Source: Lachnospiraceae bacterium
GTDB taxonomy: Bacteria; Bacillota; Clostridia; Lachnospirales; Lachnospiraceae
Direction of reading: 5' to 3'
DNA: 48,070 nucleotides
Assembly: GCA_014804785.1 (NCBI GenBank)
Contig: JAAUZD010000026.1
Location: 54,088-102,157, forward strand
Part shown: one piece after another, positions 29,947 through 44,325 of the stretch
Layout: every line of letters begins with the position of its first letter
Numbering within the stretch: the first letter of the stretch is position 1
Program-made: the position numbers and the translations under genes
Notes under the pieces: model-generated
What the model was told of the DNA's origin: nothing
The model's input: only the letters and a program-made list of their open reading frames with translations
Database searches by the model: none

Positions 29947-29975
29947 TTGCCAGAGTGAAAGGTTTATGTTAAAAT
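29947..29975 (+). promoter_or_regulatory. Host tRNA-Arg promoter
   Basis: TTGCCA (29947-29952), a 17-bp spacer and TAAAAT (29970-29975), 18 bases before the split tRNA. After integration this promoter reads through the tRNA 5' half into the complete tRNA-Arg carried by the element. Confidence 0.65.
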
Positions 29976-29993: not shown

Positions 29994-30033
29994 GTCGCTA
30001 TAGCTCAGCTGGATAGAGCGACCGCCTCCTAAG
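29994..30033 (+). pseudogene. tRNA-Arg(CCU), 5' half, interrupted by integration
   Basis: The sequence provides acceptor strand GTCGCTA, the D arm (GCTC...GAGC), anticodon stem strand ACCGC and the anticodon loop up to CTCCTAAG. It then stops resembling a tRNA. The missing half is at 40642-40683. Joined at the shared CTCCTAAG, the two give a 74-nt tRNA with a perfect 7-bp acceptor stem and a perfect 5-bp anticodon stem (ACCGC/GCGGT). The anticodon is CCU, which reads AGG. Confidence 0.9.
30026..30033 (+). other. attL: attL core CTCCTAAG
   Basis: Shared 8-bp core in the anticodon loop of the split tRNA. The bases directly to its right (GTAGG, GG, TTC) faintly resemble a tRNA 3' half but cannot pair with the acceptor strand. 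Confidence 0.8.
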
Positions 30034-30077
30034 TTGTAGGTAGGTTCGTAACTTTCTGCTAACAGGAGCACAAAAAT

Positions 30078-30150
30078 GTCTCAGTAGCTCAGTGGATAGA
30101 GCACTCGCCTCCTAAGCGAGGGGTCGGAGGTTCAAGTCCTCTCTGGGACG
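30078..30150 (+). tRNA. tRNA-Arg(CCU), complete, carried by the element
   Basis: A 73-nt cloverleaf: acceptor GTCTCAG/CTGGGAC (one G-U), D stem GCTC/GAGC, anticodon stem CTCGC/GCGAG around CTCCTAA, and T arm GGAGG-TTCAAGT-CCTCT. The anticodon is CCU, the same as the interrupted host gene, but the acceptor and anticodon stems differ, so it is not a copy of it. It contains a third CTCCTAAG core at 30109-30116. No convincing promoter lies in the 44 bases before it; it is probably expressed from the host tRNA promoter at 29947. It ends in a strong hairpin. Confidence 0.93.
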
Positions 30151-30154
30151 TTGA

Positions 30155-30194
30155 AAAGGCTGTAAATTCAAGGATTCTTGAGTTTACAGCCTTT
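30155..30194 (+). terminator. Terminator of the element tRNA-Arg
   Basis: AAAGGCTGTAAATTCAAG pairs with the matching strand through CTTGAGTTTACAGCCTTT, an 18-bp stem with one wobble pair and a 4-nt loop, 4 bases after the tRNA. The T-tract after it is short and interrupted. Confidence 0.75.
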
Positions 30195-30317
30195 CACTTT
30201 GTTTGGAAATGTGAAATCAGATTTTATTATCTGTCTGGCTTTTGCTAACAAAAGATAAACGATTGAAAAAGTGCCATTTTATCATTTTGCTAACAAAAAT
30301 TGTAAAATTTGCTAACA

Positions 30318-30609
30318 TTACCATATATTTTTAATTAACAGAAACCATCTGTGGGTACTCCTTTGTGTGTTTTCATGGTTGTTAATACATTAAAGGAACA
30401 CAAGTGATTTTTCAATATGCAGTTGTTTATAAAGCGTGGCTAAGTACCCACCATCATGCCATAAGCCTCACTTTTTTCACTTCCGTAATAAGGTGGAAAA
30501 CCTTTCACATAAGAAGTAAAGGGACATTTTATGCATTATGAACATAGACAAAAATTTGTTATGGTTGTACAATACAAATATGTATAGCATAAATGAGGGG
30601 TATTCAAAG
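30318..30609 (+). ncRNA. Structured non-coding leader before the deaminase gene (candidate RNA)
   Basis: About 290 bases with no gene between the arm repeats and the deaminase start. GTGGGTAC (30351-30358) pairs perfectly with GTACCCAC (30444-30451), enclosing an imperfect inner pairing of CTTTGTGT (30361) with ACACAAG (30398). A second hairpin, AAGGT/ACCTT, is at 30490-30504. Known: AvcD-type deaminases are controlled by an adjacent RNA, AvcI, encoded just upstream. Inferred: this could be the counterpart. A long structured leader or integrase-bound DNA are alternatives. Confidence 0.35.
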
Positions 30610-31785
30610 ATGATTATTGGTTTGGTTGGGCCGTTCGGCAGTGGCTGCTCCTATATTGCAAGAAAAATCTTAGAGGAAGAGTTTGGATATATTTATATAT
30701 CACTGTCCGATATTTTACGAGAGGAATATTATACGAAAAATCAATTAACTCCTGATACTGGTGTTTCTCGTAAGATATTACAGGATTTTGGTGATTATAT
30801 AAGGAAACAGAAAGGTGTATCTTATTTATCTCAAAAAGCTTTGGAAAAGATTAATAAAAAATTTGAGGAATCAGGCAAAGAAGATAATGTAAATTTTGTG
30901 ATTGATAGCATCAGAAACCCAGAAGAAATAAAGTTCCTGAAAGAAAAATATGTAAACTTCTTTGTGTTTGGGATATTCGCCGGAAGCAATATTCGATGGG
31001 AGCGGATTAAAAATAATTATAATGGAAACCAAGCTCAATTTCTTGAAGATGAAAGGCGTGATAAAGGCGAAAAAATAGAATATGGCCAACGGGTTACAGA
31101 TGCATTTTTAACTTCGGATGCTATTATTCTTAATGAAACTACTATTGTTAATAAAAATGAAGCATATTTGACTCTTAAGGCAAAGGTTGAAAAATACATC
31201 AATTTGTTTATAGGAAAATCTAAGAATAAGGCTCCGACAGAAATGGAATCTATAATGTCAATGGCCTATTCAAATAGTCTGCGTTCCAGTTGCCTTAAGC
31301 GTAAGGTAGGAGCAGTCATTGTTGATTCCAAGGGTAATGTTTTTAGTTCGGGGTATAATGAGGTTCCCTTTTTAGAGAAACCATGTTTGAATATGTACGG
31401 AGGCTGCTATCGTTCTGTAAAGCGAGATGATATTAAGAATCTTTTTAGTAACGACCAAAAAAATTTATGCGATTCTGTAGTGAGCCAGGTAAAGCTTTTA
31501 GAAAAATGTAGGGCATTGCATGCAGAGGAAAATGCTATTTTAAATGTTGCTCGTTTTGGTAGCGCTGCTGTATTAAAGGATGCCACTCTTTATACCACCA
31601 CATATCCCTGCAATTTGTGTGCAAATAAAATTGCTCAGGTGGGCATTAAAAAAATTGTATACTATGAGCCTTATCCTGTAGAAGAGGCTAGGCAAACCCT
31701 TGAAAAGGCACATGTAGCCCAGGAAATGTTTGAAGGAATTACCTTTAATGCTTATTTTCGTGTTTTTAATGAAATAATATTATAG
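30610..31785 (+). CDS. AvcD-like P-loop/deoxycytidylate deaminase fusion, candidate anti-phage dCTP deaminase
   Basis: 391 residues from the ATG at 30610, where GAGGGG lies 9 bases upstream; an ATG at 30538 has no ribosome site. The N-terminal half is a P-loop domain starting at residue 7 with GPFGSGCS, in which Cys13 replaces the usual Walker A Lys. The C-terminal half (about 212-391) is a zinc-dependent cytidine/dCMP deaminase domain: GAVIVDSKGNVFSSGYNEVP, His304-Ala-Glu306, and Pro333-Cys334-x-x-Cys337, so zinc ligands and catalytic Glu are intact. Known: AvcD/dCTP-deaminase defence proteins have this fusion and deplete dCTP/dCMP during phage infection. Here it is cargo between the integrase and attL. 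A plain ComEB-type dCMP deaminase would lack the P-loop half. The defence role is inferred. Confidence 0.75.
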   Translation: MIIGLVGPFGSGCSYIARKILEEEFGYIYISLSDILREEYYTKNQLTPDTGVSRKILQDFGDYIRKQKGVSYLSQKALEKINKKFEESGKEDNVNFVIDSIRNPEEIKFLKEKYVNFFVFGIFAGSNIRWERIKNNYNGNQAQFLEDERRDKGEKIEYGQRVTDAFLTSDAIILNETTIVNKNEAYLTLKAKVEKYINLFIGKSKNKAPTEMESIMSMAYSNSLRSSCLKRKVGAVIVDSKGNVFSSGYNEVPFLEKPCLNMYGGCYRSVKRDDIKNLFSNDQKNLCDSVVSQVKLLEKCRALHAEENAILNVARFGSAAVLKDATLYTTTYPCNLCANKIAQVGIKKIVYYEPYPVEEARQTLEKAHVAQEMFEGITFNAYFRVFNEIIL

Positions 31786-31868
31786 AAAAAGTTTTGCAGT
31801 TTCTATAAACCGAATTCTATTATAGAAATTACTTTATAATTTCTATAATCCAAAATATATTATAAAAA
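31780..31868 (+). repeat. Phased TTATAGAAA/TTTCTATAA inverted-repeat array
   Basis: TTATAGAAA at 31780 and 31820 and TTTCTATAA at 31800 and 31840 alternate every 20 bases exactly. They form two units of TTATAGAAA-N11-TTTCTATAA with a 40-bp period; a decayed third start (TTATAAAAA) is at 31860. The first copy overlaps the deaminase stop codon and the array ends at the ribosome site of the zinc-ribbon gene. TATAAT within the fourth copy could be a -10 element. It could be an operator with sites on one DNA face, or tandem RNA hairpins. Confidence 0.75.
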
Positions 31869-31881
31869 GGAGTTTAAAATA

Positions 31882-32067
31882 ATGGAAAACATGAAAATTT
31901 GCATTCATTGCAAAAAACTGATGAGTTACAATTCTTATTTTGGGGGTTATTATTGTGCATTTTGTGGGGAACTGGAGATAAAACCTCAGTCATATAGTTT
32001 TGGGAGGCAAAATACTGTAAGGGCAAGAAAGCTTGCCTCTAATAAAAAAACAGTTTTGGCAAAGTAA
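31882..32067 (+). CDS. Small zinc-ribbon protein
   Basis: 61 residues. Cys7-x-x-Cys10 (CIHC) and Cys25-x-x-Cys28 (CAFC) form a probable zinc ribbon, followed by a basic tail ending in LASNKKTVLAK. AAGGAG lies before the ATG. It is separated from the deaminase gene only by the inverted-repeat array, so it may be its partner or regulator. I do not recognise a family. Its C-terminal end borders degenerate transposase sequence, so truncation cannot be excluded. Confidence 0.6.
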   Translation: MENMKICIHCKKLMSYNSYFGGYYCAFCGELEIKPQSYSFGRQNTVRARKLASNKKTVLAK

Positions 32068-32140
32068 TATACCAGACAAGTGTTGAATAGGTTTTATATC
32101 CGCGACTCTAGTGGTAATATTTCCATATTGAAAAGCCTTC

Positions 32141-32183
32141 AAAAAAGTGGCAGTTACTCTTATAAAAAAGGAGTAACTGCCAC
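32141..32183 (-). terminator. Strong hairpin with T-run on minus strand
   Basis: GTGGCAGTTACTC (32147-32159) and GAGTAACTGCCAC (32171-32183) make a perfect 13-bp stem. On the minus strand it is followed by TTTTTT, so it would end transcripts coming from the right, such as those from the transposase remnant or the integrase operon. Confidence 0.65.
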
Positions 32184-32241
32184 ATATTTGATTCAGTATA
32201 ATGCTGTCTTTCTCAACCTGCCATATGCCGAAGGCGGGGAG

Positions 32242-32481
32242 TTACTCATAGAGGTTGTGATACATGAAGTCTGCCAGTTCCAGAAGACTTTTGCCACCCA
32301 GTTTTTCCAGAGGAGAGAAGTTCACATGGGAGAGGATAAAGTTGAGGGCATGCTGATTGTCAAGACCGAAAATTTCCGTTCCCAGAACCAATTCGAAAAG
32401 ATCAACACCGCTTTTCATGCTCAGCGCTGTTTCGGAACTGTGGAGTACAGCAAAGAGGACTCCGGCATTGAGAAAATTCAT
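32242..32481 (-). pseudogene. Transposase C-terminal remnant
   Basis: About 79 codons read on the minus strand. The end, ILSHVNFSPLEKLGGKSLLELADFM, resembles the C-terminus of IS30-like transposases (typically a His-Asn-Ser segment followed by a LGGKSP-type stretch). The residues before it are only loosely similar and there is no DDE core, so this is a decayed fragment. It lies between the deaminase cargo and the integrase, suggesting that the cargo slot was once hit by an insertion sequence. The opposite strand is also open here but its product has no recognisable features. The rest of 32068-32526 shows no gene. Confidence 0.45.
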
Positions 32482-32526
32482 AATCAGTAACTTATTTCAT
32501 AAACTAAAGTAAAACAATGTAAAGAA

Positions 32527-33918
32527 TTAGTTCCCAGTGGCAGCAGTACCATTATCTAAAAGGCTTTTCATTACAGCTATCAAATCAGGAGATTTCTGTA
32601 ACTGCTCCAACAATGCCTTAACATCAATCTCGGAATTAGTGTTCTTTATTGGTTTTGCTTTTTTTAAATCAGATGTAGAGTAAAACTCCTGTTCAAAGAC
32701 TTTGGCATTTTCTTTTCGGTTCTCGTCCAGAACATGAGCATAAACCCTTGTTACCATGTCTGCCGTTGCGTGTCCTGTGTCACCCTGTACTGACTTAATA
32801 TCTCCTTTTGAAAGCATCAATTTATAAGTGGTAGATGAATGGCGTAGGCTATGGAAAACTACATTAGGCAGACCGGCTTTCTCTTTCAGCTTTTTAAAGG
32901 ATTCTTCTAAAATTCTGTTTTCGCATGGATACCCGTTATCTAAGGCTACTACAAGGTCGAAATCATGGTATTCATTACCTAAAAAGGCTTTTGCTTTCTC
33001 CTGTTGTTCTCGCCACTTTCTCAGTATGTGGGCAACTGTGACAGGCAACCATACACGCCTTACTGAACTCTTTGTTTTCGGTGCCTTTAAAACCCTTCTC
33101 GTTGTAGTTCCTTCTTTTAGCGGTTGGAATATATGATATATGTCTTTATTATCCAGTGTATTAAGGGCATCTAAAGAAACCCTTTCCAATTCCCTGTCTA
33201 TTTCTATATATGCATTATCATTTACAATGTCTTTATCGGAGATATGGACACGCTCCCACTGTAACCCTAAAATCTCGCCTGCCCTTAATGAACAAGAGAA
33301 AGCTAAGTTTATAGCAACATACAATCTTCCGTCTTGGCATTCGTCAAGAGCCTTTCGGATTGTGTCAATATCCCAAATATCCCTCTTTTCATATTCAATT
33401 TTGGGTAATGTAGCACCATACATAGGATTTTTGCCTATTATTTCCCATTTAACAGCTTGGTTAAAAGCACATTTGAGTAATCTACATATTTTATCTATTG
33501 TCTGGTCTGTGACATATTCTGTTCTTGCTTTATGCGTTTTTGTTGATACCGCAGGCGTACCTTTCAATGTCTGAATATACTTATCTATCACTCGTGGTGT
33601 AATCTTCTGTATCTTAACATTCCCGATAATCGGATTGATATAATTGTTAATCAGACTTGTATTGCTGTCATAGATAGATAATCCCCATTTCTTCGGTGCA
33701 TATATATCTACAAAGTCTTTTAAAAATTCTTCCAAAGTTTCATTTTTGGGAATAACAAAGGTATTCTTTATTTGTTGATTTTCAACTTCTGCCTTTCTTG
33801 CTTTTGCCGTTTTGTGGTCTGAAAATGATTCCCATTTCTGCTTTGTCTTTCCGTTTTCATCAACATAGCGGTATACTACGGAATAACTTCCATTATCTCT
33901 TTTTACGATTGTTGCCAT
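32527..33918 (-). CDS. int: Tyrosine recombinase (integrase) of the element
   Basis: 463 residues. An N-terminal arm-binding domain (1-55) is followed by a SAM-like core-binding domain (about 60-170) and a catalytic domain with Arg212 (CSLRAGEILGL), His356-x-x-Arg359 (HSLRH), His383 (GHAT) and the nucleophile Tyr393 (RVYAHV). All catalytic residues are present, so it should be active. It resembles integrases of Tn916-like and related Firmicutes elements. AGGG lies in the end of the upstream xis gene, 8 bases before the ATG. The likely substrates are the CTCCTAAG cores and the YTGCTAACA arm repeats. It is the last gene of a leftward unit. Confidence 0.95.
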   Translation of the reverse strand: MATIVKRDNGSYSVVYRYVDENGKTKQKWESFSDHKTAKARKAEVENQQIKNTFVIPKNETLEEFLKDFVDIYAPKKWGLSIYDSNTSLINNYINPIIGNVKIQKITPRVIDKYIQTLKGTPAVSTKTHKARTEYVTDQTIDKICRLLKCAFNQAVKWEIIGKNPMYGATLPKIEYEKRDIWDIDTIRKALDECQDGRLYVAINLAFSCSLRAGEILGLQWERVHISDKDIVNDNAYIEIDRELERVSLDALNTLDNKDIYHIFQPLKEGTTTRRVLKAPKTKSSVRRVWLPVTVAHILRKWREQQEKAKAFLGNEYHDFDLVVALDNGYPCENRILEESFKKLKEKAGLPNVVFHSLRHSSTTYKLMLSKGDIKSVQGDTGHATADMVTRVYAHVLDENRKENAKVFEQEFYSTSDLKKAKPIKNTNSEIDVKALLEQLQKSPDLIAVMKSLLDNGTAATGN

Positions 33919-33920
33919 GA

Positions 33921-34295
33921 TTAAAGCCCTCCGTTTCTTTGTTCAGAATGATTTAGCCACCTGTCAAAATCTTCTTTTGAAATTCTTATTGCATTTCCAA
34001 TGTGAACCACTCTGAACGGTGCTTTCTTGATTAGTGCATATGCGGCGGTTCTTGAAATTTCTAAAATTTCCTGTATATCTTCTACATGGTAAACTTTTGC
34101 TGTATAGCAATTAACAGTTAATGGTGCAGTAAGTGGGATAAGTTTCTCTTTCTTCTGTTCTTCCATTTGCTTTAGTGCTTTTCTCGTATTCTTCATAGTA
34201 AAAAATCCAACTTCTTCTAAAGTATCTTCAGAGAATGAACTAAGTATATCTGAGGTATCTTTTGCAGTAAAGTCAAATACATCTGTCGTATTCAT
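33921..34295 (-). CDS. xis: Excisionase-like helix-turn-helix protein
   Basis: 124 residues from the ATG at 34295, 6 bases after AGGAGGG. The C-terminal 60 residues are a MerR/HTH_17-type winged helix (VEDIQEILEISRTAAYALI, then FRVVHIGNAIRISKEDFDRWL), the fold of small excisionases. The N-terminal 60 residues are acidic and unfamiliar. It sits two bases before the integrase gene, the usual place for Xis, which steers the integrase towards excision. A plain regulator is the alternative. Confidence 0.75.
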   Translation of the reverse strand: MNTTDVFDFTAKDTSDILSSFSEDTLEEVGFFTMKNTRKALKQMEEQKKEKLIPLTAPLTVNCYTAKVYHVEDIQEILEISRTAAYALIKKAPFRVVHIGNAIRISKEDFDRWLNHSEQRNGGL

Positions 34296-34328
34296 ATAAA
34301 ACCCTCCTGTCAAAATCTCATAGAAACA

Positions 34329-34544
34329 TCAATAAAACGGTAAACAGCATTCTTCATTTTCTTCTATAGTTTCTTTACTGGAATCATTTACAAGCAGTAA
34401 AGACTGTCCATGCTGAATAAGCATTAACCCCACTTTATTAAGTGCCTTTGGTACACAATCATCTAAGGAAATGTCAAACTCAATTTTGACTTTTACGCAA
34501 GATGAATTTTCTTTTGTTATCTCAAAATCTTTTTTGCTATCCAT
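34329..34544 (-). CDS. Hypothetical small acidic protein
   Basis: 71 residues with a good ribosome site (AAGGAG) before the ATG. Acidic, four Cys (single ones near the start and middle and a CC pair near the end), no membrane segment, and no recognised family. It is 33 bases upstream of the excisionase gene in the same direction and probably belongs to the same transcript. Confidence 0.55.
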   Translation of the reverse strand: MDSKKDFEITKENSSCVKVKIEFDISLDDCVPKALNKVGLMLIQHGQSLLLVNDSSKETIEENEECCLPFY

Positions 34545-34588
34545 AATGGCTCTCCTTTTTAAACTGTAAAAATTCTCTCACTGTCTCT

Positions 34589-35212
34589 CTATGGCTTCTC
34601 TAGTGTAAGTTCCTTTACAAACGCATAATAAGTATTTGGTTTTAAATTGAGTTCCCTCATAGCCTGTCTGTTGGTGATTTCTCTCCTTAAGACCCTCTGA
34701 TAAATTCCCTCAAATCCCTCTGGCCTTGGAATTTTTGTCCTGCCGAACCTCACTCCTTTTGCCTTTGCGGATTCAATACCCTCTCGCTGTCGTCTCTGAA
34801 TCTCTGATTTCTCTTTCTCCCCAACATAGGATAAGATTTCAAAAGTCAGTTTTGCAATAAAGCGTCTGTCTAAAGTCTTTTCTTCCTGTGCCGTATTTAG
34901 CAGAGGATAATTAATCACCCTTATATTACACTCCCTTTCTTCGGTGATATAATTCCACTCCTTTGCCATTTCCGAGTAGCTTCGACCCAGACGGTCCAGA
35001 TCAAGGATAACAATTTCGTCTCCCGGTTGCAGAGACTGAATCATCTGCTGATAGGCAGGACGGGAGAAGTCCTTTCCCGACTGCTTATCAATGAAAATGT
35101 CCCTTTCTAATATTCCCTCATTCAACAGGGCATCTCTTTGCCGTCCCTCATTTTGCGTCTTACTGGAAACTCTGATATAACCGAATCTCCGCTTCTCTGT
35201 CTGCTTTTTCAT
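34589..35212 (-). CDS. Serine recombinase (resolvase/invertase family)
   Basis: 207 residues from the ATG at 35212, 8 bases after GGAG; an upstream GTG overlaps that site. The N-terminal catalytic domain begins GYIRVSSKTQ with probable catalytic Ser16, followed by LDLDRLGRSYSEM (the conserved Arg motif). A long E helix (GEKEKSEIQRRQREG) leads to a small C-terminal helix-turn-helix (ITNRQAMRELNLKPNTYYAFV). This is the size of Tn3-type resolvases and invertases, not of large serine integrases. It may resolve multimers of the excised circle. No invertible segment was recognised nearby. Confidence 0.9.
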   Translation of the reverse strand: MKKQTEKRRFGYIRVSSKTQNEGRQRDALLNEGILERDIFIDKQSGKDFSRPAYQQMIQSLQPGDEIVILDLDRLGRSYSEMAKEWNYITEERECNIRVINYPLLNTAQEEKTLDRRFIAKLTFEILSYVGEKEKSEIQRRQREGIESAKAKGVRFGRTKIPRPEGFEGIYQRVLRREITNRQAMRELNLKPNTYYAFVKELTLEKP

Positions 35213-35315
35213 GTCCGTCACTCCTTTTCTTTATTTTGACGAGACGATTGAACCACAGAGCATTTGAAAAGTAAAGACCGCGATTTAAAATATTTATAAA
35301 TGTTATATAATTTGC

Positions 35316-35354
35316 TTTCAAACAAGGGAGATTCTTTGTCTCCCTTGTTTGAAA
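35316..35354. repeat. Perfect 16-bp-stem inverted repeat upstream of the resolvase
   Basis: TTTCAAACAAGGGAGA (35316-35331) and TCTCCCTTGTTTGAAA (35339-35354) around a 7-nt loop, about 100 bp before the resolvase start. It lacks a clear T-tract, so it could be a terminator separating the upstream genes, or the resolvase's own recombination or operator site. A smaller repeat, TCTCAATG-TCT-CATTGAGA, is at 35409-35427. Confidence 0.55.
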
Positions 35355-35429
35355 ATGTGGATAATCATTTGTAAATAGATAATTGAAAAAGTATACATTT
35401 TTAAACAGTCTCAATGTCTCATTGAGAAT

Positions 35430-35747
35430 CTAAGATTGAGGTTTCAATGACTTATCATCACGATTCTTTTTGTTACCTCTGCCACCCACTAGACCGCCTT
35501 GTCGTCCAATCTCCTGTGCTCTTTTATATCTCTTTTTTGTAGCGTCAATAGTAGAAATAATAGGATTTAAAATAATTTTTATCATAGCCTGTTCTGTTTC
35601 GGTGAGAGAATAGCGTTCCCAATTATTCTTCCCAGTAACACCATATTCACAGATTGCTTCATAAGTAGCTAATCTGATTTTAGGTTCGCTTATCTCTTGA
35701 CAGCTTTCATAAAAACTCTTTCTGAATAAAAATTCTCCGTCCTTCAT
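35430..35747 (-). CDS. DUF6291-like protein, paralogue 3
   Basis: 105 residues with AAGGAG before the ATG. The N-terminal pattern FLFRKSFYESCQEISEPKIRLATYEAICEYGVTG is shared with the two genes upstream, followed by a helical part and the basic Gly-rich tail IGRQGGLVGGRGNKKN typical of DUF6291-type proteins. Known: such proteins are common in phages and integrative elements near replication genes; their function is unclear. The basic tail suggests nucleic-acid binding. Confidence 0.6.
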   Translation of the reverse strand: MKDGEFLFRKSFYESCQEISEPKIRLATYEAICEYGVTGKNNWERYSLTETEQAMIKIILNPIISTIDATKKRYKRAQEIGRQGGLVGGRGNKKNRDDKSLKPQS

Positions 35748-35912
35748 AATGATAATCTCCTTTTCATGTTCAAAGATAATTCTTTTTGACTTATATTCAT
35801 ATAAGTCAATATATTGGTATGTATATCTATATTGATGTTAATATTCAGTTTAAATACAGTTTTCAATATACATCCCAATATACATCCTTATATGAATAAA
35901 GGTTTTATTAGT

Positions 35913-36221
35913 TCAATCTAACCTGCATACCATACTTTTATTTCTTTTTGGATATTTATTTCTCCATTTCTCCATTTCGTTTTCTTTGACGGCACGCTCA
36001 AAGCGTTCCTTAGATTTGTCTATGTGTATCTGAATATTATGAAGCAAGAGGATATTGTGAATATCATTAACTTCTTCCTTTTCTGTCTTTCGTTCTCCGG
36101 TTACACCATAGTAAATAATATCTAATGCTAATTTTTCTGCTTTTTCATCACCAAATGTTTCTCGGAAATTATCAATATCTTCCTTAAACGTTTCAAAGAA
36201 CATAAAATCATCATGCTTCAT
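35913..36221 (-). CDS. DUF6291-like protein, paralogue 2
   Basis: 102 residues with AAGGAG before the ATG. It shares the FMFFETFKEDIDNF...ALDIIYYGVTGE pattern with its neighbours and has a charged C-terminal helix, but ends without the Gly-rich tail. It starts 14 bases after the upstream paralogue and is probably co-transcribed with it. Confidence 0.55.
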   Translation of the reverse strand: MKHDDFMFFETFKEDIDNFRETFGDEKAEKLALDIIYYGVTGERKTEKEEVNDIHNILLLHNIQIHIDKSKERFERAVKENEMEKWRNKYPKRNKSMVCRLD

Positions 36222-36235
36222 TATAGCTACTCCTT

Positions 36236-36874
36236 TTAATTGTCCTCTGCGTATTGTTCCAAGAGTTCCTCATATCTCTCAAAACCAGTACCGCCTTCAA
36301 GATAATCTTTCATAAGTTTATCTAATATTTTTTCTTTGACATCATCAGACAGATTTCTTGATTCATTCTCTAACCGTTCTTCAAACATTTCTCTCATGTA
36401 ATCTTTCCATGTCTTCAATTCGTATCGCTTATGAAATAACGTATATACTTCTTCTGGCAATAAAGCAGATAATTCCTCTGGTATATTACGTTCGTCATGT
36501 TTTATTACATACTGGTATTTTTCTTTCAAAACATTAATCGTATCAATATAGGTATCTTTTATTTTAGTATCAAGCGCAGATGACCTGCCAATAACATCTT
36601 GAAAAGTTTTTATTGCTCCCCGAATCAGATTTTTATTATAATATCGCCTCTTTTGTACACTAATCTCATAAATGACAGAACGGAACAATATGCGCTCTAA
36701 TGGCTGAAGAATTGATAATGTGCCTGAAAATTCCCCAAAGTAATTATAATCATCTAAACCATATTCAATAAGAGCCATAGCTATTTTCCCCTGTCGTTCC
36801 TCTGGTAACTCTTTTAAAATATCAAGAGTTGAAGCATAAAATAAAAAGGCTTTCTTTTCGACTTGTCTGGGCAT
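36236..36874 (-). CDS. DUF6291-like protein, paralogue 1 (long form)
   Basis: 212 residues with AAAGGAGG upstream of the ATG. The first 90 residues (FLFYASTLDILKELPEERQGKIAMALIEYGLDD, cited to 20 at most: FLFYASTLDILKELPEERQG) match the repeated domain of the next two genes. The second half is an acidic, helical region not found in them. It is the first gene of a leftward unit that may run through the two shorter paralogues. No catalytic motif is seen. The role is unknown, possibly in replication or stability of the element. Confidence 0.55.
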   Translation of the reverse strand: MPRQVEKKAFLFYASTLDILKELPEERQGKIAMALIEYGLDDYNYFGEFSGTLSILQPLERILFRSVIYEISVQKRRYYNKNLIRGAIKTFQDVIGRSSALDTKIKDTYIDTINVLKEKYQYVIKHDERNIPEELSALLPEEVYTLFHKRYELKTWKDYMREMFEERLENESRNLSDDVKEKILDKLMKDYLEGGTGFERYEELLEQYAEDN

Positions 36875-37390
36875 TCCCTTTCACCTCCTTTCGACGCTTG
36901 TCCACAAGAAATATGTAAATAGCCTTGTATATTACAGTAATATTCCTCATTTTGAAGAAGTATTCCAAAAAAATTAAAAAATTTTTTGATAAATTACAGG
37001 AATATATACTGCTTTCTTTTATCTTCCATTTTGGTATAATGTAATCCAACCCTAAATCATAAGAACCACCCCTTTCCATAAAGAATAAAGATTAACTGTT
37101 TACATTAGCTTATACGCAAAAACATTCAAGTCATTGGAGACTAAAAGGGCATCAAAAAGCAGAATCTCCGTAATGTTCAATTTGTTTATACGAAAGCAGA
37201 ATAATTTTGTGCATATTGCACATTAAATGCTACTTTCTCTATACGTCTCAACCACAGAAAGCCATTTTAAATGTAAAAGATATAGAATTATACCTTTTGA
37301 CCTTTCTCCACGTGAAAACACCCCTTGAACGTGTTCAAGAGGTGTTCCCAACTTATACTACTATAGTCCTATAGAATTGTCATTCCGTTT
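36875..37390. other. Non-coding region with two palindromic candidate operators
   Basis: A 516-base stretch without a convincing gene. It holds ATATTACAGTAATAT (36929-36943, a perfect odd palindrome, with a partial copy near 36995), which lies just upstream of the DUF6291-like unit. It also holds TGTGCATATTGCACA (37208-37222) and, at its right end, the terminator of the 204-residue zinc-ribbon gene. The remainder is AT-rich and shows nothing else I can name. Confidence 0.5.
37315..37346 (-). terminator. Terminator of the zinc-ribbon gene pair
   Basis: On the minus strand AACACCTCTTGAA pairs with TTCAAGGGGTGTT (one mismatch) around a 4-nt loop and runs into TTTTC. It lies 45 bases after the stop of the 204-residue gene. 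Confidence 0.65.
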
Positions 37391-38005
37391 TTATTCTAAT
37401 TGTTTTTTTAACAGTTCTATAAACACTTCCATTCTGGAATATTCGCTTTTAGGATAAACGTCTACAAGCGATGCGTTATCATCAGTTATGAGAACTACCG
37501 CAGAACTCTCATCACCACTGGAGAAAATAAATTTAACAATATAAATCTGCCCCTCGTCATTTCCTGTTACTTTTGTAGCAGATTTTATATCACAATTAGA
37601 AAATGTTGCCAACACAGTATTTTTTGCCATTTTCTCTCCTTTATCTTCTCCAAAAAGAGAACTTAATAAAAATACTGCAATTAACACTACCGCAATTATT
37701 TTTACATTACGGTATTTGTTTTTAGTAAAGAAGTTAGATGTATCTTTATCTTTTGCAACCTGTTTTACATCATCTGTAAAGCATTTAGCGGTTTCTTTGG
37801 CTTTCTCTGCATACTTCCCCGCCTGCCCGCCTGTTGCTTCATTCACATCGTTACCAATCGCTTTCGCTGAATCCATAACTACACTGGCTGTTTTTTTTAA
37901 TACTTCTCTCACACTTTCTGTATCAGAGGTTGAAAGACTATTTCCACAGTAAGGACAGAATTTGCTATTATCTTCAATCTGCTTGCCGCAATGCGTACAG
38001 TACAT
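37391..38005 (-). CDS. Zinc-ribbon single-pass membrane protein
   Basis: 204 residues. Residues 1-24 are a zinc ribbon (CTHCGKQIEDNSKFCPYCG). A helical Lys/Ala-rich region follows (about 35-95), then one membrane helix (NVKIIAVVLIAVFLLSSLF, about 100-120) and a C-terminal 80-residue domain that would be outside the cell. The ribosome site is weak (AGAAG). It starts 18 bases after the neighbouring zinc-ribbon gene, so the two are probably co-expressed. I do not recognise a function. The zinc-ribbon plus one-helix layout recurs in many Firmicutes envelope proteins. Confidence 0.65.
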   Translation of the reverse strand: MYCTHCGKQIEDNSKFCPYCGNSLSTSDTESVREVLKKTASVVMDSAKAIGNDVNEATGGQAGKYAEKAKETAKCFTDDVKQVAKDKDTSNFFTKNKYRNVKIIAVVLIAVFLLSSLFGEDKGEKMAKNTVLATFSNCDIKSATKVTGNDEGQIYIVKFIFSSGDESSAVVLITDDNASLVDVYPKSEYSRMEVFIELLKKQLE

Positions 38006-38023
38006 TTCATTTTCTTCTTTCGC

Positions 38024-39568
38024 CTATTCACCGTTTACTAATTCAGAATTATCAAACCAATCACAATATTGTAAATCTGTTGTCACAAATATATTTAATA
38101 CTCTTTTCTCGTCTCCTCTATCCCATACTTCCATTATGTAATACGCATTTTCAAGTTCCCACGTCAGATAATATCTGGAAGTATCATTTATATTTCTGCA
38201 TATACATGGACTTATGCTTTGCATTTCTTCTGGCAAATCTACATATTCAATGCTATTGTATTTTGGAATTGCTGGATTTGCAGAAATAAGCTGCTTTTCA
38301 AAAACTATTATTCCGTCTTTAGTAATTCCATAAACTAAATAATCTACAACGGTTAAATATACATAAAGGTCTTGTGTTGCGTCTGGATCAACGCCAGACA
38401 TTCCAACATATCTCTCAAAATCAGAAGAGGGTACTTTATTGAGTGTTCCAAAGTTTAGTGTACCGAATACATGAGAATCCTTGCCTATAATATCTGCCGT
38501 AAGCGGTACATATGGGATTAGTTCCCCCATTTCTGATAAAATACCGCTGTCATAAGCTGTCAATGGTTGTTTAAAGCCAGAATCTGTAACATTCTCTGAT
38601 TTCAAGTTTTCATCATCAGGCGAAGAACCGCCAAATTGATATGTACCCTGTACTACATTATTTAGTTGGACGTATTGAGCCGATACGAAAAGAGTATTTT
38701 CATTAATCACTGATATGTCGATTGTTTGATTACGCATAAAATCATCATCACAGGTAATTATATTGGCTTTATATGTGTCATTACCACTACTATAAAATTC
38801 ACCTTCTCCATATAAAACAGGTACAGTATTTTCAGTTACACTTATTATAAATGTGCTATCAGAGTAAATGAAAAGCATATACTCTATATCATTACTTGTG
38901 TATCCATAATACCCCTCTTTTAGCAGAGTATCTCCTGTAACATTTGGGCTTACCATATTGTCTGCATCATACCCATTTGTATTGTCCTCTAATGCGTCAA
39001 CTTCGGACATATACTGGTATTCTACACAAAGAAATAAAAGTGAATCATCATCAGAAGAAATGGTTATGCTGTTGTCAGCCGGCATAATTGAAAATTTCTT
39101 ATCAATAAAACTCCCTGATTCATCACCTGATATAATTCCGACATAATTACCATTGTCATTATCAATACTACCCGAAAGAAGAAGAAAATCACCTGATTCA
39201 TCATAGCCAATCATATTAAAGGTATATTGACCGCTAACATCTTTTGCAATCGTAATTCTGTCAAGTTCATTGACATAAGTTCCTGCATTTAATACATTTT
39301 CATTTGAAATATTTTCATGTTGTGTAGGCTCCTGTACAGTTATTTCAATATCTGAACTCTTGTTCGTTTGGTTCTTTGTTATAACAAATACACCAACTGC
39401 AACACCAAGAATCAGAACACCTATTAGCCCTATAATTATAGCTGTTCTTTTTTTTGGTGGACTTGAAGCTGTATTTTTTGCAGACATTGGACTTACCACT
39501 TCTTTCCCACAATTCGGACAAAATTGTGCATCATCTGATAATTGCGTTCCACATTCTTTACAAAACAT
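38024..39568 (-). CDS. Zinc-ribbon membrane protein with large outer domain
   Basis: 514 residues with GGGAGG before the ATG. A zinc ribbon at 1-21 (CKECGTQLSDDAQFCPNCG) is followed by a short linker, a membrane helix at about 42-64 (TAIIIGLIGVLILGVAVGVF) and a 450-residue outer part. Within it, segments such as LNAGTYVNELDRITIAKD and LLKEGYYGYTSNDIEYMLFI look like repeated beta-rich units. No enzyme motif is seen. It is divergent from the XRE repressor gene, 171 bases away, and may be under its control. Confidence 0.65.
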   Translation of the reverse strand: MFCKECGTQLSDDAQFCPNCGKEVVSPMSAKNTASSPPKKRTAIIIGLIGVLILGVAVGVFVITKNQTNKSSDIEITVQEPTQHENISNENVLNAGTYVNELDRITIAKDVSGQYTFNMIGYDESGDFLLLSGSIDNDNGNYVGIISGDESGSFIDKKFSIMPADNSITISSDDDSLLFLCVEYQYMSEVDALEDNTNGYDADNMVSPNVTGDTLLKEGYYGYTSNDIEYMLFIYSDSTFIISVTENTVPVLYGEGEFYSSGNDTYKANIITCDDDFMRNQTIDISVINENTLFVSAQYVQLNNVVQGTYQFGGSSPDDENLKSENVTDSGFKQPLTAYDSGILSEMGELIPYVPLTADIIGKDSHVFGTLNFGTLNKVPSSDFERYVGMSGVDPDATQDLYVYLTVVDYLVYGITKDGIIVFEKQLISANPAIPKYNSIEYVDLPEEMQSISPCICRNINDTSRYYLTWELENAYYIMEVWDRGDEKRVLNIFVTTDLQYCDWFDNSELVNGE

Positions 39569-39670
39569 GCTTTTACCTCCCTGAACGGTATTTTATAAGT
39601 CTTTTTTTCTTAATGCTATACAAGCATAAATATATTATATTGCAACAGGCATAAATATTCAACGCTTATA

Positions 39671-39687
39671 GCACATATATTTTGTGC
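39671..39687. promoter_or_regulatory. Candidate operator GCACA-N7-TGTGC
   Basis: Imperfect palindrome GCACATATATTTTGTGC in the divergent region between the zinc-ribbon gene and the XRE repressor gene. TGTGC/GCACA half sites also make up the palindrome at 37208-37222, so both may be bound by the XRE protein. Confidence 0.4.
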
Positions 39688-39739
39688 CTACTGCGCATTT
39701 TTATAGGTAAAATACACAACAAGCACAGGAGGATTTCAC

Positions 39740-40039
39740 ATGATTGAAGGATTGCCAGACAGACTGAAAGAAGCCCGTATAAGAATAAATCTCTCCCGAA
39801 AGGAAGTGGCAGAGCATTTTGGTATATCTTCGTCAATTATTGCCGGATATGAAACAGGCTACCGCACACCGTCAACAGAGGTTCTAATCAAGCTGTCGGG
39901 GCTGTATCAATGTTCTTTGGATTATCTGGTGGGTAAGACAAAGGAAAATCAGATTGTGATTGATATAGATGGGCTTAACGAGATTCAAATATCAGCGATT
40001 CACATAATGGTTGAAGCTATGAAGCAAAAGCATGAATAA
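39740..40039 (+). CDS. XRE-family transcriptional repressor
   Basis: 99 residues with AGGAGG before the ATG. An N-terminal HTH_3 domain (about 5-62: RLKEARIRINLSRKEVAEHF, ISSSIIAGYETGYRTPSTEV) is followed by a short C-terminal part without a peptidase or sensor domain. Known: such proteins commonly control excision and transfer genes of integrative elements. It is divergent from the zinc-ribbon membrane genes, and the intergenic palindrome is its likely binding site. Confidence 0.85.
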   Translation: MIEGLPDRLKEARIRINLSRKEVAEHFGISSSIIAGYETGYRTPSTEVLIKLSGLYQCSLDYLVGKTKENQIVIDIDGLNEIQISAIHIMVEAMKQKHE

Positions 40040-40043
40040 CAGT

Positions 40044-40283
40044 TCATGCTTTCGTTTGGGTATTCTCTTTTCTATGATTCTCCTTTAATGCTTTTTCTGT
40101 AAACTCGTGAATCTCATTTATGGAATACAAAAAGCACATGATACAGTCTAAAACCTGCTGTTCCGTATCTTCTTCCATTAACCCCAAATACACAGTATTT
40201 ATAAGATTTGACAGTTCCCTTAACCGATTCGAGATAATTCCCATGCTTTCTGTTGCGGTAGTCAATCGTTCTTCTGTGTTCAT
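40044..40283 (-). CDS. Hypothetical helical protein at the right end of the element
   Basis: 79 residues from the ATG at 40283, 8 bases after GGAG. Predominantly helical and acidic with a polar tail; no membrane segment and no family that I recognise. It is convergent with the XRE gene, four bases between the stops. It is the last gene before the right end of the element. Confidence 0.55.
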   Translation of the reverse strand: MNTEERLTTATESMGIISNRLRELSNLINTVYLGLMEEDTEQQVLDCIMCFLYSINEIHEFTEKALKENHRKENTQTKA

Positions 40284-40641
40284 CTTCAACACTCCTTTTT
40301 CGAGGAACGATTATACCACTCTTTTTGAAATTTCAATAGTTTTTTCAAGGAAATATTTAAAAACCCCATTTCGTGAAATGTAATGATTTCAATGTACCGA
40401 GGTAAGTTTCTGATTCAAAAAAATTTTTTATTCATAAAAATTCATAATTTGTAACTTATAATGCAAAGATGTATTCTCTTGCTAACAAAATTGCTAACAG
40501 GACTATATGATACTATATAATATAAGGAAGAAAAGCATGATATTTCAATGATAGTTGTATCGTTAAAGAACCTTGTATTCTCTATAACTGTGTGGTATTC
40601 TATAGTACAAGATAAGAGCCTATAGGAAATGTTTTTTAGTA
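40284..40641. other. Right end of the element, non-coding
   Basis: 358 bases with no gene. It contains the two right-end integrase repeats and is otherwise AT-rich. A short palindrome ATTTCGTGAAAT lies near 40368. Read-through from here in the circular form would enter attP. Confidence 0.6.
40479..40499 (+). repeat. Right-end arm-type repeats TTGCTAACA
   Basis: Two copies at 40479-40487 and 40491-40499, 12 bases apart and about 145 bases from the attR core. They are identical and co-oriented with three of the four left-end copies. Confidence 0.7.
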
Positions 40642-40649
40642 CTCCTAAG
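40642..40649 (+). other. attR: attR core CTCCTAAG
   Basis: Same 8-mer as attL, here continuing into the original 3' half of the host tRNA-Arg. Confidence 0.8.
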
Positions 40650-40683
40650 CGGTAGGCCGGAGGTTCAAATCCTCTTAGCGACG
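40642..40683 (+). pseudogene. tRNA-Arg(CCU), 3' half
   Basis: It contains the 3' side of the anticodon loop, the stem strand GCGGT, the T arm (GGAGG-TTCAAAT-CCTCT), acceptor strand TAGCGAC and discriminator G. The acceptor strand is perfectly complementary to GTCGCTA at 29994-30000, over 10 kb away, proving that the two halves were one gene. Confidence 0.9.
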
Positions 40684-40689
40684 TCTTAA

Positions 40690-40731
40690 GAAATGCCGAA
40701 AATACGGAATGATTAAAATTTTCGGCATTTC
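40690..40731 (+). terminator. Original terminator of the split tRNA-Arg
   Basis: GAAATGCCGAAAAT pairs perfectly with ATTTTCGGCATTTC (14 bp) around a 14-nt loop, 6 bases after the tRNA 3' end. Confidence 0.75.
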
Positions 40732-40798
40732 ATACTCTCTAAGTTTGCTAATCAAAATAGCGTTTCTGCTAATTTTTCCAAAGGTTGTGTTAAAAATA

Positions 40799-41716
40799 AT
40801 GCTCCAAGAATCAAGTATTGAATCATCAGAGACCAATATAAAAAGCTTGATATATGTTGTGCGTAATCAGCAGGTTATGATAGACAGTGATTTAGCGATG
40901 TTGTATCAAGTAGAAACAAAAGTGTTCAATCAAGCAGTAAAGCGGAATATAGCACGTTTCCCCGATAATTTTAGGTTTCAACTTAATAAAGATGAATTTG
41001 AATCTTTGAGGTCACAATTTGTGACCTCAAAGGGAGATACAAAAAAAGGTGGACGACGATATTTGCCGTATGTTTTTACAGAACAAGGGATTGCAATGTT
41101 GTCGGCTGTCCTAAGAAGTGATATGGCAATTCAAATTAGTATTAATATTATGAATGCTTTTGTGGAAATGCGGCATTTTATTGCTAATAATGCCCTGCTT
41201 TTTGAACGCATCAGCACAGTTGAATTGCGGCAGTTAGAATATCAGAAACAGACAGACGAAAAATTAGAGCAGATATTTGAGTACATATCCGAGCATGAGG
41301 AATCTAATCAAAAGGTATTTTTTGATGGACAGATTTATGATGCATTCAGTCTGATAGTAAATCTAATCCAAAAAGCAAATAAAGAAATTACTCTGATAGA
41401 CGGATATGTGGATGTTGGGACATTGAATCTGCTTTCAAAGAAAAAGTCTGATGTTGCAGTAACTATTTATACGCAGAAACAGACGAAGCTAACAAAAACT
41501 GATGTTAGGAATTTCAATGCGCAGTACCCGACATTAAAAATAAAATATACCAAAGTATTCCATGATAGATTTTTAATTTTTGACCGAACGACAGCCTATC
41601 ATGTAGGAGCGTCTTTGAAAGATGCAGGAAAAAAGTGTTTTGGAATCAATTTAATTCAAGATGCAGGTATCATCAAAGACATCTTGCAAAGGTTGGAATT
41701 AGAAACAGAGGAATAA
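40799..41716 (+). CDS. ORF6N-domain protein with PLD-like C-terminus
   Basis: 305 residues from the ATG at 40799, where the ORF6N domain begins shortly after; a longer open frame starts inside the tRNA terminator and is unlikely. Residues of about 15-125 are the ORF6N domain (LIYVVRNQQVMIDSDLAMLY, VFNQAVKRNIARFPDNFRF, RRYLPYVFTEQGIAMLSAVL), a phage-type DNA-binding domain. A helical linker follows. The C-terminal 110 residues include HDRFLIFDRTTAYHVGASLK, similar to a phospholipase-D-like half site though lacking the full HxK motif. Known: ORF6N proteins are common in phages and islands; their function is poorly known. A palindrome lies inside the gene. It is outside the tRNA-bounded element. 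Confidence 0.8.
   Translation: MLQESSIESSETNIKSLIYVVRNQQVMIDSDLAMLYQVETKVFNQAVKRNIARFPDNFRFQLNKDEFESLRSQFVTSKGDTKKGGRRYLPYVFTEQGIAMLSAVLRSDMAIQISINIMNAFVEMRHFIANNALLFERISTVELRQLEYQKQTDEKLEQIFEYISEHEESNQKVFFDGQIYDAFSLIVNLIQKANKEITLIDGYVDVGTLNLLSKKKSDVAVTIYTQKQTKLTKTDVRNFNAQYPTLKIKYTKVFHDRFLIFDRTTAYHVGASLKDAGKKCFGINLIQDAGIIKDILQRLELETEE
41004..41032. repeat. 29-bp perfect palindrome inside the ORF6N gene
   Basis: CTTTGAGGTCACAA (41004-41017), one central T, and TTGTGACCTCAAAG (41019-41032). It encodes the SLRSQFVTSK segment of the ORF6N domain. Confidence 0.85.
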
Positions 41717-41724
41717 GAAGCTTT

Positions 41725-43908: not shown

Positions 43909-44325
43909 ATGAATATATTAGTTATTGATGCCCAGGGCGGCGGTCTTGGGAAACAGATCGTGTCTGCAATTAAGAAAACCTATCCTGATATCATCATAAC
44001 TGCGGTGGGTACAAATTCCGTGGCAGCATCCAATATGTTGAAAGCAGGGGCAGACCATGCAGCCACAGGAGAAAATGCAATTATTGCTGGAAGCAGAAAA
44101 GCGGATATTATCATTGGACCTATCGGTATAGTCATTGCAGATTCCATGTATGGTGAGGTCACGCCTAAGATGGCTGCTGCCGTTGGTCAGAGCAATGCCA
44201 AGCGGCTTTTGATTCCCACAAATCAATGTGATAACATTGTTCTTGGCATTTCAAATGTGTCAATTGGTAATATTATTTCAAGCATTTTGGATTATTTAAA
44301 GACAGAATGTAGCGCAGCAACTTAA
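43909..44325 (+). CDS. DUF3842 family protein
   Basis: 138 residues. It begins NILVIDAQGGGLGKQIVSAI, a Rossmann-like nucleotide-binding start with a Gly-rich loop, and includes TGENAIIAGSRKADIIIGPIGIVIADSM, the typical DUF3842 sequence (cited in part: IIIGPIGIVIADSMYGE). Known: widespread in Clostridia with no established function. GGAGAT precedes the ATG. It has its own promoter and terminator, so it appears to be monocistronic, divergent from the two-component pair. Confidence 0.85.
   Translation: MNILVIDAQGGGLGKQIVSAIKKTYPDIIITAVGTNSVAASNMLKAGADHAATGENAIIAGSRKADIIIGPIGIVIADSMYGEVTPKMAAAVGQSNAKRLLIPTNQCDNIVLGISNVSIGNIISSILDYLKTECSAAT

Follow-up and report, generated by a model that had tools for sequence, protein, structure and literature searches.

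A probable relay of integrating elements that cut and replace tRNA-Arg(CCU) in Clostridia

How does a bacterium keep a tRNA-Arg(CCU) when an integrating element has cut the gene for it in two? The question is raised by a 48,070-nucleotide (nt) stretch of a Lachnospiraceae genome (assembly GCA_014804785.1, contig JAAUZD010000026.1, positions 54,088 to 102,157), which we refer to as a whole as the window. Here a tyrosine-integrase element cuts a tRNA-Arg(CCU) gene at an 8-bp core in the anticodon loop, CTCCTAAG, which is present in both halves of the gene, with a core-to-core distance of 10,616 bp. Joining the 5' half (29994-30033) to the 3' half (40642-40683) gives a 74-nt sequence identical at 74/74 bases to an intact locus in another genome of the genus (G008), typed by ARAGORN as tRNA-Arg(cct). 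Neither ARAGORN nor Rfam calls a tRNA at either element junction, and the attachment-site (att) identity between the element ends is limited to the 8 bp; the tRNA 3' half that marks a classical tRNA-targeting island is not carried. The original prediction that the host tRNA is cut and not rebuilt is thus borne out. ARAGORN finds exactly one tRNA in the window, a complete tRNA-Arg(CCU) of the same isotype as the split gene. Its first base lies 44 nt inward of the left core, and behind it come a stem of 18 pairs and a T-rich tail (fold z = -7.6), as had been proposed for a tRNA placed between the resident promoter and a strong terminator. The two ends of the element, 690 nt in all, hold six GCTAAC arm-like sites, against an expectation of 0.33 and a maximum of 3 in 500 resampled sequences. 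The features at the two ends are as follows.

29947-29975, + strand: resident promoter TTGCCA-N17-TAAAAT with TG before the -10 (extended -10), from a consensus scan
29994-30033, + strand: 5' half of the cut tRNA-Arg(CCU), with core CTCCTAAG as its last 8 bp (30026-30033)
30034-30077, + strand: element left-end linker, type A, without a strong promoter and with one GCTAAC arm-like site; this linker type also occurs at loci L077 and L078
30078-30150, + strand: complete element-borne tRNA-Arg(CCU), called by ARAGORN at 30077-30151, the sole copy found in the genome
30155-30204, + strand: intrinsic terminator after the tRNA (fold z, stem and T-tail)
30244-30320, no strand: left arm with three GCTAACA arm-like integrase sites, from a site scan
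40481-40499, no strand: right arm with two GCTAACA arm-like sites, from a site scan
40642-40683, + strand: 3' half of the cut tRNA, with the second core copy at its start

The element-borne copy appears to be the only one of its kind that the host has. The whole genome gave 37 tRNA matches; ARAGORN on 30 fetched loci recovered 31 distinct tRNAs, among them one tRNA-Arg(cct), and the remaining 7 low-scoring matches, which span 80-88 nt, would suit Leu or Ser types, judging by length only. Element-free loci point the same way. An empty site already carrying two tRNA-Arg genes would have told against the original prediction, and G014 and G008 each show one tRNA-Arg(CCU) in the stretches read, that of G008 being partly N. 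At the G014 locus this tRNA stands without an element, and directly after it come counterparts of three window genes, those for the sensor kinase, the response regulator and DUF3842 (open reading frame (ORF) 43909-44325 in the window). The DUF3881 gene of G014 is the closest found, at 93% identity, in a search of 40 genomes, 25 of which have this gene. The same integrase-plus-tRNA pair also occurs elsewhere: relatives 89% (L077) and 88% (L078) identical to the window integrase lie beside a tRNA-Arg(CCU). We therefore consider it very probable, from the arrangement of the sequences, that the element inserts into the only detected tRNA-Arg(CCU) and replaces it under the resident promoter, as one step in a serial relay.

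Replacement under a resident promoter implies that the promoter belongs to the site and not to the newcomer, and the same type of promoter is indeed present in element-free G014 and G008. We scored promoters by matches to TTGACA and TATAAT, with bonuses for spacing and TG; the resident promoter scores 11.5 and the best match in the window linker only 7, in line with the earlier claim that the element tRNA has no visible promoter of its own. The comparison was extended to 67 distinct linkers of at most 90 nt and to the stretches upstream of 77 first layers of recognised tRNA, including genus loci without a stack; some of these first layers are probably not the oldest, and the null expectation is a Markov resample, not an exact shuffle. 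A score of at least 10.5 was reached by 50/77 upstream stretches (resampled 1.1) versus 4/67 linkers (resampled 0.2), and a score of at least 9.5 by 54/77 upstream stretches (resampled 5.6). Capture of the resident promoter thus looks like the common arrangement, with a minority of element families apparently bringing a promoter.

If each element brings a tRNA with the same core, that tRNA could be cut in turn, and nested 5' halves should accumulate in front of the last complete gene. A pattern of two cores separated by 60-120 nt was searched for in 397 family genomes. The raw pattern alone is not evidence, and a reversed control also matches sporadically because CCTCCTAA complements Shine-Dalgarno sequences; 7 of the 59 matching genomes were excluded as stacks, two after checking (G255, G240) and five judged on 80 letters (G387, G068, G332, G203, G348). 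We fetched 53 places in 51 matching genomes, which with the window make 54 stack loci, so that 52/397 genomes in the family sample carry stacks of recognised 5' tRNA halves. Most loci (33) consist of one half and a complete tRNA; 10 have two halves, 5 have three, and 6 lack a complete tRNA, all of these stopping at a contig end inside a tRNA. In every uncut stack (48/48) the complete tRNA-Arg(CCU) comes last, one of these being a chimera at a second locus in G190 that ARAGORN nonetheless types as complete. The proposal that an element carries its own tRNA-Arg(CCU) under the resident promoter therefore extends to many related loci of the same design. Different stems, which the original prediction mentioned, are usual but not required: in 5/48 stacks the last 5' half and that of the complete tRNA share 95% identity or more. 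The order of layers also varies: G021 reads from an older degraded half through a half GTTCCC.. and a half GTTTCCG.. to a complete GTCCTCG.. tRNA, and the latter two types, B and C, stand in the opposite order in G002. Stacks are not confined to the family. In a class-wide sample 19/391 genomes matched the pattern, of which 2 were already counted (G000, G079), 12 come from families other than the window's and hold a half-tRNA stack, closed in 10 of them by a complete tRNA, and 5 have no stack; record OY725843 (Subdoligranulum variabile), for instance, shows a half, a linker and a complete tRNA.

The junctions between layers reveal what moves. Of 84 junctions, 76 (35-95 nt) form 37 linker families, a stricter grouping that replaced an earlier clustering with free end gaps into 35 groups. 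Within families of at least 3 members the following tRNA is 0.961 identical (shuffled labels 0.802, maximum 0.838), versus 0.846 for the preceding half (shuffled 0.833, sd 0.015, maximum 0.870). Since the linker predicts the following tRNA and not the preceding half, linker and tRNA travel as a unit and join unrelated targets. This pattern points to many element families that each bring a tRNA and each use the previous element's tRNA as a target. Several linkers start like a decayed tRNA 3' half (CGGCAG..GTTCGA; for example CGGCAGATTGTTCGATTCC), which suggests descent from elements that once rebuilt the tRNA.

Elements themselves can be recognised behind the stacks. A tyrosine integrase faces the tRNA from 180-352 nt downstream in 22/53 fetched family loci, a layout also seen in G021, L077, L078 and L079. 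In 3 of 6 genomes read further, a matching 3' half closes the element, at 23.7 kb (G243), 24.7 kb (G190) and 50.6 kb (G057); pairing of these distant 3' halves with the first 5' half was judged by eye, and that of G057 pairs despite one anticodon-stem mismatch. The G243 element carries TcpC, lysozyme/NlpC-P60, AAA_10, Rep_trans and FtsK-type genes, that is, Tn916-like conjugation genes.

A gene that is replaced again and again should diverge faster than its neighbours in the tRNA repertoire. In 21 genomes of the genus we count 12 distinct sequences of the complete tRNA-Arg(CCU), with a mean identity of 75.9%, compared over 65 nt with ragged ends excluded, while six other tRNAs (6-7 genomes each) have mean identities of 96.4-99.5%. 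As a control, the motif of tRNA-Arg(UCU) does not vary among its 22 matches in this genus (21/37 genomes), and no two of these matches lie close together; its search pattern fixes more bases than the CCU pattern. Replacement by mobile elements would explain this strong divergence of tRNA-Arg(CCU) between close species. In G040 and G041 a type-A tRNA and terminator stand directly before the host kinase genes, and neither genome has a close relative of the type-A integrase (best 7.7e-7 and 2.7e-20, against 1e-110 or better for full-length relatives in other genomes of the genus). The element appears to have been lost from both, with its tRNA retained.

These observations fit a simple sequence of events. 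Strand exchange by the integrase within the 8-bp core would split the resident tRNA; the resident promoter would then transcribe through the dead 5' half into the element tRNA, and the element terminator would end the transcript. The 5' ends of tRNAs are processed by RNase P, and the new tRNA could in this way be matured at its 5' end to a working molecule. As the element tRNA bears the same core, it would become the target for the next element, and repetition would yield nested 5' halves and one complete tRNA. Wherever in the nest an element is precisely excised, the tRNA of that level would be restored, leaving one working copy at all times, which would make nesting safe. The host should tolerate imprecise loss of an element only when it keeps a complete tRNA, which G040 and G041 do. 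The original prediction had offered "addiction or rescue"; rescue agrees with the data, and addiction is a poor fit, since the split gene would be rebuilt on precise excision. The sequences themselves show that the gene is split and replaced, that the complete copy is single, that the layers are stacked and modular, how the promoters are distributed, and that element tRNAs persist where the integrase is missing. Together they make it likely that a relay operates across many Clostridia families, in which a newcomer cuts tRNA-Arg(CCU), captures the promoter and offers its own copy as the next docking site, with one working tRNA at each stage, often that of the latest arrival, and that the host tRNAs are largely derived from mobile elements.

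Several observations weigh against such a relay. A tRNA-Arg(UCU) is present in the genome and may also read AGG, which weakens the case that tRNA-Arg(CCU) is essential. No tRNA-facing integrase was found in 31/53 fetched family loci, 13 of which have less than 0.8 kb after the last layer and the others more. G098, G374 and G087 showed no matching 3' half within about 69-90 kb, nor did the inner layer of G057 in the stretch read. The left and right halves at L077 stem from different tRNAs, and the second G190 locus (L177, position 38040 of the joined G190 stretch) holds a chimeric tRNA-Arg that changes at the core from the 5' half of one element tRNA to the 3' half of a different one and has acceptor-stem mismatches; some loci are thus rearranged. 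The G190 genome also holds another complete copy besides the chimera. Pieces of a second integrase lie to the right of the L077 type-A element, and this locus suggests nesting followed by loss of one layer. The stack pattern demands two CCU cores and is uninformative on elements with other tRNAs. Promoter capture is not universal either: 11/67 linkers score at least 9.5 (resampled 2.3), and the right end of the window element holds a weak site, CTAACA-N16-TATAAT (score 10), which would face the tRNA about 150 nt before the core in the predicted circle. The tRNA may therefore be expressed from the circle too, where the original prediction had it expressed only when integrated.

The last two points bear on an alternative in which the element tRNA is driven by a promoter of its own in the integrated and the excised state alike, so that promoter capture is incidental. 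Besides the right-end site of the window, some relatives have clear linker promoters, such as TTGACA-N17-TAAAAT in G057 and G059. We nevertheless regard this account as unlikely, as 60/67 distinct short linkers score below 10, the window linker scores 7, and the best promoter-like site at the right end scores 9 in L077 and L078. The tRNA might instead serve mainly as an aid to translation or against host defences, with rescue secondary; AGG makes up 23/98 Arg codons in seven element genes versus 7/75 in six flanking genes. That the isotype carried by the window element is the very one it destroys, and that the tRNAs of the stacks sit just inside the left attachment site (attL), makes such a role very unlikely as the main one, even if the isotype match in stacks follows partly from a search that required the same core.

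Two further accounts do without replacement altogether. An ordinary tRNA-targeting island would also have a tyrosine integrase, a core in the anticodon loop and flanking tRNA halves, and linkers such as CGGCAGATTGTTCGATTCC hint at island descent; in that case the 3' half in the phage-type attachment site (attP) would restore the gene and the extra tRNA would be incidental. With 8 bp shared, an attL that neither ARAGORN nor Rfam calls a tRNA, and linker families that predict the following tRNA, this is extremely improbable, and for the window it is ruled out by the absence of a rebuilt tRNA. There is next to no chance that the stacks were left behind by replication errors or by early duplications of the tRNA gene. 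All the tandem pieces are indeed of one isotype, by construction of the search, but the cuts lie at the core, the linkers are many and unrelated, integrases occupy a fixed place in 22/53 loci, and one element contains Tn916-like conjugation genes; the matching 3' halves 24-51 kb away in G243, G190 and G057 refute such an origin. We thus return to serial replacement of tRNA-Arg(CCU) by elements as the preferred reading.

What does the window element carry between its ends? Its gene content is as follows.

30538-31785, + strand: P-loop and dCMP/dCTP-deaminase-like protein, cargo and candidate anti-phage gene, from profile searches
32527-33918, - strand: tyrosine integrase (Pfam PF00589, E 8.9e-16), convergent with the tRNA
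33921-34313, - strand: excisionase-like helix-turn-helix (HTH) protein (HTH_17; TIGR01764 weak, below cut-off)
34589-35221, - strand: serine resolvase/invertase-like recombinase (PF00239)
35430-36874, - strand: DUF6291 proteins at 35430-35747 and 36236-36874 with an unnamed ORF between them (Pfam)
37391-39568, - strand: two zinc-ribbon proteins, 37391-38005 and 38024-39568, with homologues in L077 74% and 89% identical
39740-40039, + strand: cI/RstR-like HTH regulator (RstR model below cut-off), 97% (L077) and 93% (L078) identical

The deaminase-like gene sits between the tRNA and arm sites on one side and the integrase on the other. As a candidate AvcD-type anti-phage deaminase it matches the PADLOC dCTPase model (3e-104) and NCBIfam NF041025 (266.6 bits, below the cut-off of 400), with Pfam AAA matches below cut-off, and has no tblastn match in relatives L077 and L078. 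With small ORFs it fills a gap of about 2.4 kb between tRNA and integrase, versus 197 nt in L077 and L078. Upstream of it, at 30345-30460, arms GTGGGTACT and AGTACCCAC flank a foldable stretch (fold z -2.1) that might encode a small regulatory RNA of the kind found in AvcI-AvcD systems. The type-A tRNA is not constant either, beginning GTCTCAG.. in the window and GTTCCCT.. in L077 and L078. No capsid, terminase or tail family and no conjugation module was found in the 13 scanned element ORFs, further small ORFs lying outside the scan, and the element has no near DNA match among 50,697 phage records. The conjugation genes of Tn916-like integrative and conjugative elements (ICEs) are thus shared by the G243 relative and absent from the scanned ORFs of the window element; typical Tn916 target choice is also different.

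Viral sequences gave little. No relative of the window integrase was confirmed in IMG/VR, the predicted type-A attP had no match in viral contigs, and the single viral-contig match to the stack pattern (60-90 nt spacing) proved to be repetitive coding sequence. Four fecal 'Bacteriophage sp.' contigs with 42-48% identical integrases hold no complete tRNA. Two of these contigs and a plasmid record from Monoglobus have, after an integrase, a core with the 3' half of a tRNA-Arg(CCU) behind it (L268 at 9161, L269 at 3676, L273 at 7807); the layout resembles the right end of the G057 element, and L273 has the same bases before the core.

To the right of the split gene, the window may preserve a trace of an earlier round.

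40684-41720, no strand: probable older-element remnant, with GCTAAT sites at 40747 and 40768 and an ORF6N gene at 40709-41716

A segment close to the 3' half on its right, 40744-40797, shares 80% identity over 54 nt with a region just inside the element of G067, which carries a complete tRNA nearly the same as the window's split tRNA; shorter or weaker matches adjoin other tRNAs in L184, L188 and L177. Because of this likeness, the split tRNA is itself probably of older-element origin. Calling it the "host" tRNA was therefore right in that a resident gene is destroyed, and probably wrong in that this gene seems to be a relic of an older element. The ORF6N-domain gene adjoining the remnant has a weak PLD-like match and no counterpart found in G014, and a related stretch is located upstream of a stack in G129 (L139, L110). 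With 0.5-0.9 kb read upstream, 32/53 fetched family loci have a DUF3881 homologue.

Rescue of a destroyed tRNA has a precedent in phages. In tRNA-dependent lysogeny, described in 2024 for actinobacteriophages (Fionnbharth, cluster L, Gaia), integration destroys a tRNA and a phage tRNA rescues it (PMC10865867; here and below, statements on published systems hold for the accessible part of each source). Both systems use a tyrosine integrase and a short core (8-17 bp in the phages) in an attB that overlaps a tRNA gene that is not rebuilt, and in both the element tRNA is of the same isotype, its functional supply having been shown experimentally in the phages and being predicted here (PMC10865867). 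The carriers differ, being temperate phages there and an integrative element in Clostridia here; the Fionnbharth tRNA overlaps the end of another gene and has its own tested promoter, whereas the window tRNA lies just inside attL under a resident promoter; and serial stacking, with each tRNA the next target, is seen only here, no stacks being described in the accessible text (PMC10865867). The same source poses prevalence outside actinobacteriophages as a question and cites Lj965 of Lactobacillus johnsonii as a possible case; this prophage resembles the window element in that the tRNA is not rebuilt and a cognate tRNA is encoded, but it is a single prophage for which that text describes no relay (PMC10865867). 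Likewise, Sinorhizobium meliloti prophages like Mesorhizobium phage vB_MloP_Lo5R7ANS inactivate tRNA-Leu(UAG), and their authors invoke compensation; they differ in being phage-related, with two strains named and no stacks in the accessible text (PMC11476347, PMC12429752). In Caldiarchaeum, a 5' fragment of tRNA-Thr(GGU) precedes a complete tRNA of that kind, and an insert with a recombinase separates the two; yet this is an archaeon with one insert and, in the part of the report available, no relay, and the arrangement was put forward as a way in which tRNA introns and scattered tRNA fragments could arise (PMC3293823). A paper on gut integrative mobilizable elements (IMEs) has no mention of tRNA in a term search of its main text (PMC12904643). 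A literature search, with most subscription papers outside its reach, found no published report of serial stacks. The serial relay, the promoter capture and the ICE and IME carriers look new.

With these results, tRNA-rescued integration would no longer be a matter of phages only but would include ICEs and small integrative elements. In practical terms, stacked CTCCTAA half-tRNAs offer a ready marker for element ends in Clostridia. For the bacteria, a core tRNA gene would have been replaced repeatedly by mobile elements of many families, and the stacks may be read as a record of successive invasions.

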